A DNA stretch of 64,000 nt from positions 434,001 to 498,000 of the forward strand of contig NZ_AP018341.1 of NCBI RefSeq assembly GCF_003574135.1. The letters run 5' to 3'. Shown one piece after another: positions 52,813 to 58,415 of this stretch. The notes below the pieces were generated by a model, which was given only the letters and a program-made list of their open reading frames with translations, was not told the origin of the DNA and made no database searches. The translations under genes were made by a program, and so were the position numbers. Every line of letters starts with the position of its first letter. The first letter of the stretch is position 1. This DNA comes from a cyanobacterium endosymbiont of Rhopalodia gibberula (lineage in GTDB: Bacteria > Cyanobacteriota > Cyanobacteriia > Cyanobacteriales > Microcystaceae).

Positions 52813-54779
52813 ATTAACGAGGGTGAGTCGTTTTTGACAAAGACGATGCTAAGGAAGACTTTCCCTGGCTCATAGTTCGTTTTTGCCATATCGATAATCC
52901 TTCTTACCATATCATGGTGGCTAACTTTTGGTCATTAATTGTCATTAAGCTAAATTAAATGAGAGTGTCTCACTATTACTTAGATAATTCCTCTCTAGGA
53001 GGATTCTCTAAGTGAGCAATTGCCGCTTCACATCCAGTATGAGTAAGTGAGTTTAGATAAATCTAAAAATAGAAAAGTAGTTAAAGAAGAGCAATCTTTT
53101 AGATATTAACCTGTCTGAAAATTAAGCTAACAGAATTAAAATGGCAAACACTATATAAAGTTGACTAGCGATCTAAAAATCCTCTTCAGAACGAGAACAA
53201 GATTGGAAATCTTATATTTAAATTAAAGAGTATGGAAAACTAAAGAAATAGTAGGTCAAATAAATCTGCCAATAAATATTATTTATAGAATATTTAGAGA
53301 AATAATTTCTAGATAGATTATTCAATGAAGAGAATAACTAAGGAAGTTTTAGAAAAGTAAAAGAATAATTTAAAACAAGCAAAATATTAAATATCTTTAA
53401 TAAATTTTAGGAGAATGTCAAAGAACTCATCATATCAGGTAATTGTTTAAAACATTAAAAATATAGAAAAGTAAAGTTAATTATTATTTAATATTTTACA
53501 AATTTTAAATAATAATTATGAATGAAAAAAACAAAATATAAAACTACAATTACAACTATAACTAATCTGTACCAGAGACAACCCATTTCCGTAAAAAAAT
53601 TAAAAAATTTTGTAAAAACAAAATAATAATTTTAGTAACTACTAAGAATAGTTATTTGTTGTATATACGTAGTTTAGTTAAAGTTAAATTAAAAGAATAA
53701 AAAGCAAAAGAAGGATATCCATTCCCTTTCGTTAACTTATAGTCCATAAAGAAATCTAATATTTCATATATTTAATTAAATAAAATCTATGAAATCACTG
53801 GAAAAATATACAAAAATAAATATAATAACATCCACACATTCTTCAACTGTTTAAAATTTAAATATCATTTGTTTGATTAAAGTTTTACAATTAATTGTTA
53901 ATTTTGTTTAAATCTAGAAAATAAGGTAATAAACCTGTAGTTTATATCTGGATTTTTTATTTTTTTTTTAAATTTTTATTGTAAATTATTTTAGTTAATG
54001 AAATAACTAACTTCTCTTTTTATTTCTAGATTTCATAGTGTATTGTTTTTATTTTCTGTAATTATAAACATATAAATATTTTTTTATTATCATATATAAA
54101 TTTATTTAAATACTCCTTTCTATTTTAGTTTAATTCTTATATTTACACCTCCATTTTTTTATTTTACAAAATAATTTATATTATATTAATCAATATTAAT
54201 TCCTGCAATTGAGGTGTTCTTATTTGGATTATATCGGTATATTACTTAATAAGTAATATTAACTTTTATTTATTTCAACCTTACTGTATTTTCTTTGTTT
54301 ATTAACAAATGTTTATTCTTATAAATTTTGACTATTTTTAACCGTGAATTTAAAATAACTTAACTAAGTTAAAATAACCATTATTTCTTATTTTTTTATT
54401 GTTAATAATATAATTAATGGTGCCAATTTGACTATTTAATTACTTATTTTATTAGTAAAAGAAATTAAAAAAATTTTATGTTGTGTTATTTTTATTTAGT
54501 TACTATAAATATAGTAAAAATACAGATTGATAATGTAAGTAAGTACATTTTACTGGTTTATTCAAGTGTTAAAGCTATTTGTTAGTAAATTTATACTAAC
54601 AAATAGCTTTAATAAAAAAATTGTAAAAATAAATTTTTGTTATTAATAACAGACTTGCAAAGGATTCTAATATAGATAGCTTATACTAAATGTAGTAAAT
54701 AAACTAATTAATTATCTCTAAATTGTTTATTTAGTTAATCGGTTTGTTTAATTTTCTAAAAAAATAAAATTATCGAAAT
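52813..54779. other. 2-kb very AT-rich gene-free region
   Basis: No gene found. A 19-bp perfect hairpin is at 54569-54612. A short plus-strand motif near 53665-53700 encoding RSLVKVKLKE has a diverged counterpart at 57656-57686 (SSLAKVKLK), outside the other arm of the large inverted repeat. It may be a trace of a duplicated gene. Confidence 0.5.
54569..54612. repeat. perfect hairpin, 19-bp stem and 6-nt loop
   Basis: TTAAAGCTATTTGTTAGTA (54569-54587) pairs exactly with 54594-54612 around loop AATTTA. It lies 168 bp outside the left arm of the large inverted repeat. A run of A follows on the plus strand, so it would read as a terminator on the minus strand. Confidence 0.7.
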
Positions 54780-54941
54780 AATCAATATTTTTTATTTCTA
54801 ATAAACAGTTATCGATAAAGTTTAAGTCAAGATAAAAAAGTAATAAAAATATATTTTTTTATAAAATTTGTTATTTTCTGATTTTTATAACTTTATGAGC
54901 TGGTCAATTATTTATAACTAGACAAACTTCTAGCTATAGGG

Positions 54942-54981
54942 TTAATACTTCTATTTTTTTTAAAAAAAATAGAAGTATTAA
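54942..54981 (-). terminator. 40-nt perfect palindrome behind the 17-codon ORF (left arm)
   Basis: TTAATACTTCTATTTTTTTT is followed directly by its own reverse complement. On the minus strand it lies 4 bp after the stop of the 17-codon ORF, a terminator position. The same element is repeated at 57319-57358 in the right arm. Confidence 0.65.
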
Positions 54982-54985
54982 TTTA

Positions 54986-55039
54986 TTATTCAAAAGTAAA
55001 ATAAGTAAAAAATAATGTAGTAAGCGCTCCAATTAACAT
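54986..55039 (-). CDS. 17-codon ORF with ribosome-binding site (left-arm copy)
   Basis: Identical to the right-arm copy at 57261-57314. ATG at 55039-55037, AAGGAG 8 nt upstream (55053-55048 on the minus strand), TAA at 54988-54986. The predicted peptide MLIGALTTLFFTYFTFE is a single hydrophobic segment. See the right-arm copy. Confidence 0.4.
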   Translation of the reverse strand: MLIGALTTLFFTYFTFE

Positions 55040-55477
55040 AATTATTTCTCCTTAATTTTTAGAAAAATTTTTATAGGCTCGTCTTCCTTCCGTTACTCAG
55101 GTACAATAAGGAATCATAGCTAAATAAACTCAGATTTTCTAAAAATAAACTAGGTTTTAGAGTTTAAGTTGTCCTAACATGGTCAAATATTTATGTCTCG
55201 GAAAAAGTATTCTTCCGGTAAAGTTTAATTTTTAAACTAAATGATACATAGCAGGAATATTAACGATAATATCTATTTTTTATATAAGCAAGTACTTAGT
55301 TTGTATAGAATAGCAGCGCTATTTAGTTCTAGTAATAATTCTATAAAATTAAGCTTTTCTATCTTAATTAAAGGCATTTTTTTTAAGCCATTAGATAAAG
55401 TTTTATCTTTTGTACTATTTTATAAAATTTAAGGAAAAGATTGACAAAACTATAACTGAGTTGACGATTCACTGCTA

Positions 55478-55909
55478 ATTGTCGAGTCAATTGATTTTTC
55501 TGATTTATTAGTTTTTATAACTTTAATGAGAATATTTTATATAGTACAACCGCGTTAATAAATCTCACTGGAAAGGTTGAAACTATTAAATATCTGTTTA
55601 TTTTTGATAGAAAAAATCTTTAAATTATTCAAATTAAAATTGAAGTATTTAACAATTTATACAAAAAAAATAGTCTCGTCAAAAATATTCTTGTAATGTC
55701 ACTAATTAGTACAAAGTCTTGAGTAAAAAAGATTAATCATTTAAGGTTGTGCCCTAAATTTTAAGAAAATTACTCAAGAAATTAATTAGCTATGATAGGA
55801 TGGGACTATGTAGAATAAAATAACCTTGTTCATATTTACATTAACTGTTATTTTTTTACATTAACTATTATTTTTTTGAGGTTGAAGATAATAGTCTAAA
55901 TTGTTTACT
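55478..55909. other. leader between left repeat arm and ecfT-like gene
   Basis: 432 bp of unique AT-rich DNA inside the repeat. It must carry the ecfT-like promoter unless that lies in the repeat arm. A short direct duplication (TTAACTRTTATTTTTTT) is visible at about 55843-55876. Confidence 0.45.
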
Positions 55910-56782
55910 ATGGACTTACTGCGCTCACTTCCCATTGGACTCTATCTAGAAAAACCTATCACTTGGTTACATCAACTCGATCCTAGAGTAAAACTAGTTT
56001 GGTTAATGACTTTTCTTGCTTCCCCGATTTTAGCTCACCCCTTCTGGCAACTTGGAGTAGTTGGAATTCTGATATTATTGACCATAGCAGCTAGGATTCC
56101 AATAAGAGTCTGGAGACAACAAATGGGCTGGTTAATTGTTCTCTCAATTCTCACATTTATGATTACAGCAATTGCCCCTGATGGTTTGGCGGTCAATGCC
56201 CAACCTCGACTCTTGGATGGTGACTTATCTTTGCCGCAGCCTACTGATTATGACTATATTTTATTTGATAAAGGGCGGTTGATTACCCGTCGGTCTGTTG
56301 AGTTAGGAATTCGTATCAGTACCCTAATTTTCATTCTTATTTATAGCACTAACCTTTATCTTTTAACTACCGCTCCAGAAGAAATTACTGCTGGGTTAGA
56401 AGATTTACTAGAACCTTTGCGTCATCTGAAACTCCCCATTACAGAAATTATGTTAACTCTAACGCTTTCTTTACGGTTTATTCCCCTGGTGCTAGAAGAG
56501 TTACAAAATTTAGCTAGATCGATTCGTACTAGGGCAATTAATTGGAAAAAATTAGGAATTAAACGAACTTTACAGGTATGGTTAGTTGTAGTAGAAAAAT
56601 TATTAGAAAATTTGTTGATGCGGGCTGAAGAGATTGCCGTTGCCATGGAAGTTAGAGGGTTTACTAACCCTAATGAACATCGAGTTCAATGGTATCAATT
56701 ACGCTTAATTCAGTGGGATTGGGTCGCTTTAGCAATTTTAATTCCTTTTTGGTGGGCACGGTTTATTTGGGGAAGAATGTGA
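55910..56782 (+). CDS. EcfT/CbiQ-family transmembrane transporter protein
   Basis: 290 residues from the ATG at 55910; a TTG three codons earlier is also in frame. It has four to six membrane spans and the family hallmarks: LHQLDPRVKLVWLM near the start, LTLSLRFIPLVLEELQNLARSIRTRA (first Ala-Arg coupling helix) and AEEIAVAMEVRGFTNPNEH (second, AMEVRG). EcfT proteins couple two ATPases to a vitamin- or metal-binding S component. No ATPase or S component is adjacent. Many cyanobacteria carry such a solitary cbiQ-like gene. It is intact and sits alone in the centre of the inverted repeat. Confidence 0.88.
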   Translation: MDLLRSLPIGLYLEKPITWLHQLDPRVKLVWLMTFLASPILAHPFWQLGVVGILILLTIAARIPIRVWRQQMGWLIVLSILTFMITAIAPDGLAVNAQPRLLDGDLSLPQPTDYDYILFDKGRLITRRSVELGIRISTLIFILIYSTNLYLLTTAPEEITAGLEDLLEPLRHLKLPITEIMLTLTLSLRFIPLVLEELQNLARSIRTRAINWKKLGIKRTLQVWLVVVEKLLENLLMRAEEIAVAMEVRGFTNPNEHRVQWYQLRLIQWDWVALAILIPFWWARFIWGRM

Positions 56783-57260
56783 TATGAACTTTCTGTATTT
56801 TAAGGAAAAAATCGGCGTTGACTAGCAGTGAATCGTCAACTCAGTTATAGTTTTGTCAATCTTTTCCTTAAATTTTATAAAATAGTACAAAAGATAAAAC
56901 TTTATCTAATGGCTTAAAAAAAATGCCTTTAATTAAGATAGAAAAGCTTAATTTTATAGAATTATTACTAGAACTAAATAGCGCTGCTATTCTATACAAA
57001 CTAAGTACTTGCTTATATAAAAAATAGATATTATCGTTAATATTCCTGCTATGTATCATTTAGTTTAAAAATTAAACTTTACCGGAAGAATACTTTTTCC
57101 GAGACATAAATATTTGACCATGTTAGGACAACTTAAACTCTAAAACCTAGTTTATTTTTAGAAAATCTGAGTTTATTTAGCTATGATTCCTTATTGTACC
57201 TGAGTAACGGAAGGAAGACGAGCCTATAAAAATTTTTCTAAAAATTAAGGAGAAATAATT

Positions 57261-57314
57261 ATGTTAATTGGAGCGCTTACTACATTATTTTTTACTTATT
57301 TTACTTTTGAATAA
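57261..57314 (+). CDS. 17-codon ORF with ribosome-binding site (right-arm copy)
   Basis: AAGGAG (57247-57252) stands 8 nt before ATG at 57261, an unusually good ribosome-binding site for this window. The frame reads MLIGALTTLFFTYFTFE and stops. A 40-nt palindrome follows 4 bp later. Site, start, stop and terminator-like element together resemble a small transcription unit, present twice because of the repeat. The peptide is one hydrophobic span and matches no small photosystem or cytochrome subunit I know. It could be the cut-off start of a longer lost gene. Confidence 0.4.
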   Translation: MLIGALTTLFFTYFTFE

Positions 57315-57318
57315 TAAA

Positions 57319-57358
57319 TTAATACTTCTATTTTTTTTAAAAAAAATAGAAGTATTAA
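57319..57358 (+). terminator. 40-nt perfect palindrome behind the 17-codon ORF (right arm)
   Basis: Right-arm copy of the palindrome at 54942-54981: T8 then A8 in the centre, flanked by TTAATACTTCTA and its complement. Confidence 0.65.
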
Positions 57359-57520
57359 CCCTATAGCTAGAAGTTTGTCTAGTTATAAATAATTGACCAG
57401 CTCATAAAGTTATAAAAATCAGAAAATAACAAATTTTATAAAAAAATATATTTTTATTACTTTTTTATCTTGACTTAAACTTTATCGATAACTGTTTATT
57501 AGAAATAAAAAATATTGATT

Positions 57521-58415
57521 TGCAAACCCAATAATTTCATAACTCTATGATTCTCAATCAAGCGATTGATTAAGCAACTGATAAAAACATAACTAGCCAG
57601 TTTCCTCAGTTCGGTTATTATGAGTTATCTAATTCAAAACCACTATCAATGCATACAAGTAGTTTAGCTAAAGTCAAATTAAAATAATAGATAAGAATAA
57701 ATAATATTTTTTGTATAAAATCACAGTCCGTAATTTTTCTTAAAATAAAGAGGTATAGCATCAAATGAAAATCATAAAATTGTCATGAATATATCTATCT
57801 TTAGATATATTTTAGCTAAGGCAATTAAATTGGTTATTGCTAAAAGACATCATCATAAAATGATATAAATAAAAGCGATATAAATTTCACTTGAATTACT
57901 TCAATATAAAGATACAAAATAATTAGCGTTATCAACATTTATTTAAAGTCATTTATTTAACGTTAAAGTTAATGTCGCCGATTAACTTTTTGCCATCTTT
58001 GATCCTACCACTTACCGTCTTCCCCTTGTTAATTCTAAATCGGCGGAAACTCTTTAATTATTCTATTTATAGATACAGCGAGGTTTATAAATAAACTTAC
58101 CCCGTCATTAGTCAATGCTTTTCAGGCTAATCCACTCCAGGGAAAGAAAGTCACTGAAGTGGATGCCCTTCTTTGTTTGACTAGTCTCGCCTAACGTGGG
58201 AAATTTTAAGTTGAATCGGTTATGATGATTTTTGGAAAGATGTCCCTAACCCTTAAGTCGATGTTGTCGACGTTTAACACAATTGATTAGATGAAAAGTA
58301 CATTTTCGAACAGACTAAGGCTAAACATTCCTAAGCTGTGTTAATTTACGTGAGTAGGCAGTTTGAGTTAGAAACTAAACCAAAAGCTATGGCATTTGGT
58401 TTAGTTTCTGCAGAT
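57521..58415. other. 0.9-kb decayed region with coding fragments
   Basis: Plus-strand fragments are protein-like but broken. 57575-57686 reads DKNITSQFPQFGYYELSNSK and on to a stop. 58099-58193 includes LTPSLVNAFQANPLQGKKVT and ends at a TAA. 58217-58260 reads GYDDFWKDVPNP then a stop. The last two may be parts of one frameshifted gene; families not recognised. A hairpin lies at the right end. Confidence 0.5.
58370..58409 (-). terminator. hairpin after murE, 15-bp perfect stem
   Basis: AGAAACTAAACCAAA (58370-58384) pairs exactly with 58395-58409 around a 10-nt loop. It starts 6 bp after the murE stop on the minus strand, so a transcription-terminating or 3'-stabilising role is likely. No long T-run follows. 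Confidence 0.65.

Follow-up and report, generated by a model that had tools for sequence, protein, structure and literature searches.

A single intact transporter gene on the chromosome of the Rhopalodia gibberula spheroid body (RgSB) is enclosed by two inverted stretches of DNA that are identical over 698 bp, and the question raised by this locus is where these arms came from and how they came to be identical. The locus lies in a window of 64 kb, positions 434001-498000 of the closed RgSB chromosome, the length of which is given as 3,020,309 bp (Table 1 of PMC5638926; Table 1 of PMC11131595). The arms, at 54780-55477 and 56823-57520 of the window, are complementary at 698 of 698 positions and are separated by 1345 bp, in which one intact gene, ecfT, is found, just as the preliminary description of this DNA had it. 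The reading favored below, to which a probability of about 0.8 is assigned, is that the arms belong to an ancient inverted pair of insertion sequence (IS) fossils of the IS630 family, which would have been homogenised in RgSB by gene conversion and would have flipped ecfT by crossover in EcSB (Epithemia clementina). The features of the locus, in window coordinates, are as follows:

54653..55620 (approximate limits), minus strand: left fossil, an IS630-type element with its transposase pointing away from ecfT, placed by tblastn pieces and alignment of the SU2 element
54780..55477, minus strand: left arm, over which the left fossil does not differ from the right one
55478..55560 (outer limit approximate), minus strand: 5' (N-terminal) part of the left fossil, missing from the truncated right copy
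55631..55909, plus strand: upstream region of ecfT inside the centre, alignable with SU2
55901 (TTG) or 55910 (ATG) to 56782, plus strand: intact ecfT gene for the CbiQ-type transmembrane component of an ECF transporter
56806..57648 (approximate start), plus strand: right fossil, a 5'-truncated IS630-type element, placed by tblastn pieces
56823..57520, plus strand: right arm, identical to the left arm in inverted orientation
57626..57648, plus strand: decayed 3' terminal repeat of the right fossil, with 4 mismatches in 23 positions relative to the SU2 element

With 16-base seeds, no other repeat of at least 60 bp was found in the window. Among inverted repeats, none besides this one reached 100 bp with at least 90% identity in the window combined with 20 sampled stretches of 20 kb (464 kb of the 3.02 Mb; outside these stretches, the chromosome was scanned for arm copies only). 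This 464-kb sample otherwise yielded palindromes measuring 40-63 bp, direct pairs with lengths of 56 and 85 bp and a single 47-bp pair linking two stretches. A search of the rest of the genome for more copies of the arm had been proposed; over the whole RgSB chromosome it returned the two full copies, no third near-identical one, and otherwise matches of 64-87% over shorter stretches, the next best after the two full copies being 72-73% over 220-243 bp. A perfect loopless 40-bp palindrome is present in each arm (54942-54981 and 57319-57358) and is imperfect in EcSB; palindromes with arms of at least 14 bp and loops of at most 3 number 18 in the 464 kb of the RgSB chromosome.

The relatives used for comparison were EcSB, EtSB (E. 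turgida), uoEpiScrs1 and the free-living SU2, and further the MAG UBA12306 and R. orientalis PCC 8801; the genus set comprised seven genomes, among which the endosymbionts of R. gibba and E. adnata (CP067995, CP076462) were not identified. In SU2, the relative of the arm lies in a broken transposase gene, and for two of the open pieces of this gene the best NCBIfam family was IS630 (NF033545; E 2.3e-16 and 8.9e-8, 60.1 and 31.9 bits, at consecutive profile positions); both pieces are partial and hence under the whole-protein cut-off of 100 bits. Matches to Pfam HTH_32 and DDE_3 were also obtained. When searched by tblastn against RgSB at 53-58.6 kb, the SU2 transposase pieces matched both arms in order: the N-terminal piece at 55505-55401 (E 9.5e-6) and, from residue 21, at 56807-56899 (E 0.013), the middle piece at 55198-54989 and 57102-57311 (E 5.8e-11 each) and the C-terminal piece at 57472-57633 (E 7.3e-9), in the right copy alone. 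In reversed sequence of RgSB, EcSB and EtSB, used as a control, no match fell under E 0.24. The ends of the SU2 element are terminal inverted repeats of 23 bp with one mismatch between them, and this end sequence occurs with at most four mismatches at one site in the window, 57626-57648, right behind the transposase end; a 400-kb sample contained no such site, two with five mismatches and three with six. Elements of the IS630 family duplicate a TA target. The left copy, the ends of which are decayed past recognition, retains most of its 5' end; the right copy is cut near residue 21 and has lost its 5' end. All transposase frames in the arms are broken. By sequence homology, the arms are parts of two dead IS630-type elements, each pointing outward from ecfT.

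Several statements of the preliminary description need revision in this light. It had held that no transposase is present, that the ends share no terminal repeat and that a GTTGAC/GTCAAC pair at the right junction would fit an origin by template switching. Both arms are decayed IS630 transposase genes by tblastn and NCBIfam, the element extends past the arm edges, with the terminal repeat kept by the right copy, and the inner edge is the place near residue 21 where the right fossil stops and the left one continues N-terminally. Two other identities considered for the arms were dropped. A known RNA family was ruled out by an Rfam search of 53-59 kb, which returned nothing at E up to 1, and a small gene of 17 codons (57261-57314, with a ribosome-site-like stretch before it) falls within the match of the transposase middle piece and shares its frame. 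Among PHROGs, weak matches were found, one of them a named transposase (E 0.0024).

Decayed relatives of the arm are dispersed in RgSB, EcSB and EtSB, at 64-75% identity over the longer stretches, and the matches of a reversed or merely complemented arm were confined to the same two stretches (21 and 33 bp, E 0.003) in 20 such loci. Across 24 genomes, matches to the N-terminal piece numbered 16 in RgSB, 22 in EcSB, 12 in EtSB and one in uoEpiScrs1, some of which are parts of one copy; stops are contained in 15 of the 16 RgSB matches. The RgSB arms are absent from the matches of this 24-genome search, and at the present locus it found only the EcSB left-flank copy (E 9.8e-4). Other fossils of the family in RgSB reach at best 79-83% mutual identity (one query). 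A count of 22 IS elements in RgSB, none of them likely transposable, is given in PMC5638926.

The pair itself can be followed into the sister genomes. In EcSB, one unbroken alignment covers the left flank genes and the left arm (5646 columns, 76.3%), and another leads from the right flank to the outer portion of the right arm (643 columns, 72.0%). EtSB has the right copy and retains, upstream of ecfT, a 5' portion of the left one together with 43-46 bp of the arm. Since EcSB has both copies and EtSB has the right copy and a left stub, all at the same places, both copies are older than the split of RgSB, EcSB and EtSB. DNA matches at the expected places and in the expected orientation in uoEpiScrs1 (E 3.4e-5 and 2.6e-9; best reversed-query matches 0.013 and 1.9e-5) are only suggestive of both copies, and the transposase protein pieces had no match at the uoEpiScrs1 locus.

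It had been proposed that recombination between the arms could flip the centre, and the flipped state turned out to be the assembled state of EcSB, in which the ecfT centre is inverted between flanks of unchanged order. The inversion was seen in EcSB only: EtSB and uoEpiScrs1 have the RgSB orientation at both flanks, and SU2, which is comparable at the right flank only, agrees with RgSB. The 5'-truncated fossil, matched from residue 21, is located at the right flank in RgSB and at the left flank in EcSB, and in both genomes the copy with the earlier residues is on the opposite side. Exchanged 5' ends together with an inverted centre are as predicted by a crossover between the copies. Judging from the RgSB and EcSB assemblies, the flip would have arisen by recombination between the inverted repeats, as both orientations exist and the junctions lie inside the repeats. 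Close to its inner end, the left-flank fossil of EcSB carries a tandem duplication of 6 bp (L061 8107-8163) that is missing from the other EcSB copy.

The product of ecfT matches Pfam CbiQ (PF02361, E 2.8e-38). Against the NCBIfam model of the cobalt transporter CbiQ it scores 39.1 bits, far under the cut-off of 111.8, and hence no substrate is assigned to it. A match to the gene was found in 39 of the 39 genomes searched, its own genome counted. About 270 bp 5' of ecfT, conserved relative to the free-living SU2, lie within the centre and travel with the gene on a flip; for this reason it is doubtful that the flip alters ecfT expression, and the flip was probably tolerated, as the gene carries its upstream region along. 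A 20-bp tandem duplication is present just 5' of ecfT in RgSB (55835-55874), the unit being single-copy in EcSB, EtSB and uoEpiScrs1.

The identity of the arms was compared with that of their counterparts elsewhere. In RgSB, no differences are present in 698 positions, with a 95% upper bound of 0.43%, while the counterparts in the sister genomes differ from the RgSB arms by 24-38%. For the inner arm, identity amounts to 75.6% with the EcSB left-flank copy (390/516) and 76.2% with the EtSB right copy (317/416); over the outer 159 bp, it is 62.3-65.6% with three counterparts. Immediately beyond the arms, the two RgSB elements are 58.6% alike (68/116), which was matched by 0 of 500 shuffles; in related cross-genome comparisons of the outer ends, 0, 1 and 23 of 500 shuffles were as good, the last value belonging to a weak link between the RgSB left and the EcSB right outer end, and a reversed control gave 96 of 500. 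As the arms are identical while being 24-38% different from their counterparts and 59% alike just outside, their identity most likely comes from recent homogenisation by gene conversion. The earlier suggestion that the identity is either recent or kept by gene conversion is supported, and conversion fits better, the copies being older than the split of RgSB from EcSB and EtSB. An edge of the conversion tract inside longer homology is seen on the outer side only; the inner edge is the end of homology.

In the innermost 28 columns, the two copies differ from each other at 0 positions in RgSB, 2 in EcSB and 6 in EtSB, and RgSB differs from EcSB at 9-10; six states occur in both EcSB copies and nowhere else, and the upstream copies have no state exclusively in common. 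The outer arm parts of EcSB are 52.3% alike (81/155). Greater likeness within a genome than between genomes was therefore found in RgSB and, for EcSB, at the inner 28 columns and not in the outer arm; EtSB did not show it. Homogenisation seems to have acted throughout the arms in RgSB, only near the inner end in EcSB and not in EtSB, so conversion would not be general. A right-to-left direction of conversion was weighed and then set aside, since the outer RgSB arm has 99 matches to each EcSB copy and the two directions are indistinguishable. If the assembly is right, the last homogenising event in RgSB would date back no further than roughly 1-2% of the time since the split, as estimated from the 0.43% bound and the 25-30% divergence between lineages. 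Comparison with sister genomes had been put forward as a check on the repeat, and the arms were found to be substantially different in EcSB and EtSB, which does not make the repeat itself false; it shows the perfect identity to be recent and lineage-specific.

The identity has also to be weighed against the way in which RgSB was sequenced, from whole-genome amplified DNA by MiSeq (2x300 bp, 550-bp inserts) with SPAdes assembly and PCR gap closure (PMC5638926). Because the arms are longer than these reads and inserts, their identity and orientation rest on PCR closure or on the assembler; such data are unable to phase 698-bp arms, small differences may be lost and the orientation may be unproven. 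It could thus be argued that the true arms are some percent different, that repeat collapse or PCR closure duplicated one of them and that the RgSB orientation is perhaps arbitrary. Copies with the expected difference of 25-35% would presumably not collapse, however, and near-identity would still need explaining. Moreover, two copies and an inversion are present independently of the RgSB assembly in EcSB, whose hybrid assembly combines Nanopore with Illumina reads (PMC11070190) and shows diverged copies, and an assembly artefact is considered unlikely.

Perfect identity, together with the presence of the right copy in all three of RgSB, EcSB and EtSB, would also fit a recent inverted duplication of the right arm, by template switching, to a place upstream of ecfT in RgSB alone. 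This is very unlikely, given that the left copy or its 5' part occupies the same place in EcSB and EtSB, and that it passes the inner arm edge into N-terminal sequence missing from the right copy and the outer edge as a diverged element end. It is scarcely credible that an active IS630 element inserted twice in recent times; two identical transposase-derived copies might suggest it, but every frame is broken, the next best match on the chromosome is far from a third near-identical copy and the copies are older than the lineage split. A gene between inverted repeats, with both orientations among sister genomes, likewise brings to mind a programmed on/off inversion switch of ecfT; with the arms decayed, one of them partly lost in EcSB and EtSB and the conserved 270 bp travelling with the gene, such a switch is given very little probability.

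At the level of the assembled sequences, the comparison demonstrates the fossils, the ancestral pair, the EcSB inversion with exchanged 5' ends and the higher identity inside RgSB, and the reading of an ancient fossil pair would link them in the following way. Two IS630-family copies would have come to flank ecfT in opposite orientation before RgSB, EcSB and EtSB separated, probably by separate insertions rather than by an old duplication, and both would then have died and turned into AT-rich non-coding DNA. Lying inverted and 1.3 kb apart, the fossils could still recombine, presumably in a continuing exchange with homologous recombination as its agent; RecA is intact in the RgSB genome. Non-crossover events (gene conversion) would copy one fossil onto the other, and in RgSB would recently have erased all differences over 698 bp. 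Crossovers would flip the centre with ecfT, one such flip, presumably neutral, being fixed in the EcSB assembly.

A study of dead elements in an obligate endosymbiont, reportedly Wolbachia, offers a parallel. Its title concerns gene conversion of non-functional transposable elements in such a host (Cordaux 2009, Mol Biol Evol 26:1679, cited in PMC3004938) and, going by that title, the likeness is that dead IS copies are homogenised through recombination in an endosymbiont; the present case differs in being a cyanobacterial diatom endosymbiont, in which the pair is inverted about a single gene and for which a sister genome shows an inversion. For Wolbachia, PMC3004938 described how IS copies or their ends recombine ectopically, with inversions and conversion tracts. 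In both cases, inverted homologous sequences recombine, giving inversion plus conversion, but in the Wolbachia account an element is flipped by its own short terminal repeats, whereas here two whole fossils would flip a host gene. Recombination and conversion between insertion sequences were already known, and this locus is a further, well-documented case; no mention of it was met in the passages and sections of the literature that the search covered.

The inverted repeat of plastid genomes consists of identical inverted arms, which evolve in concert and between which the intervening segment flips. The present locus resembles a tiny version of it in all three respects; it differs in that there is no common origin, that the arms are geneless IS fossils and that partial loss of an arm is tolerated. 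It is a tentative idea, more doubtful than probable, that the pair is still active, with both ecfT orientations among R. gibberula endosymbionts and dead IS copies acting as a self-maintaining inverted repeat in an organelle in the making; if true, this would be an initial stage of the type of structure retained in plastid genomes. The locus suggests that recombination of dead IS copies outlasted their mobility, with the pair homogenised in RgSB and the gene flipped in EcSB, and the same pair across sister genomes is a test bed for how long decaying repeats can serve recombination.

A second dispersed non-coding repeat, of about 310 bp (57650-57960), is located directly 3' of the right fossil. 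It has 23 matches in RgSB, 26 in EcSB, 13 in EtSB and 3 short ones in uoEpiScrs1, and none in the remaining three genomes of the genus; a 40-bp piece of it, at 85%, is found at 53660-53699.
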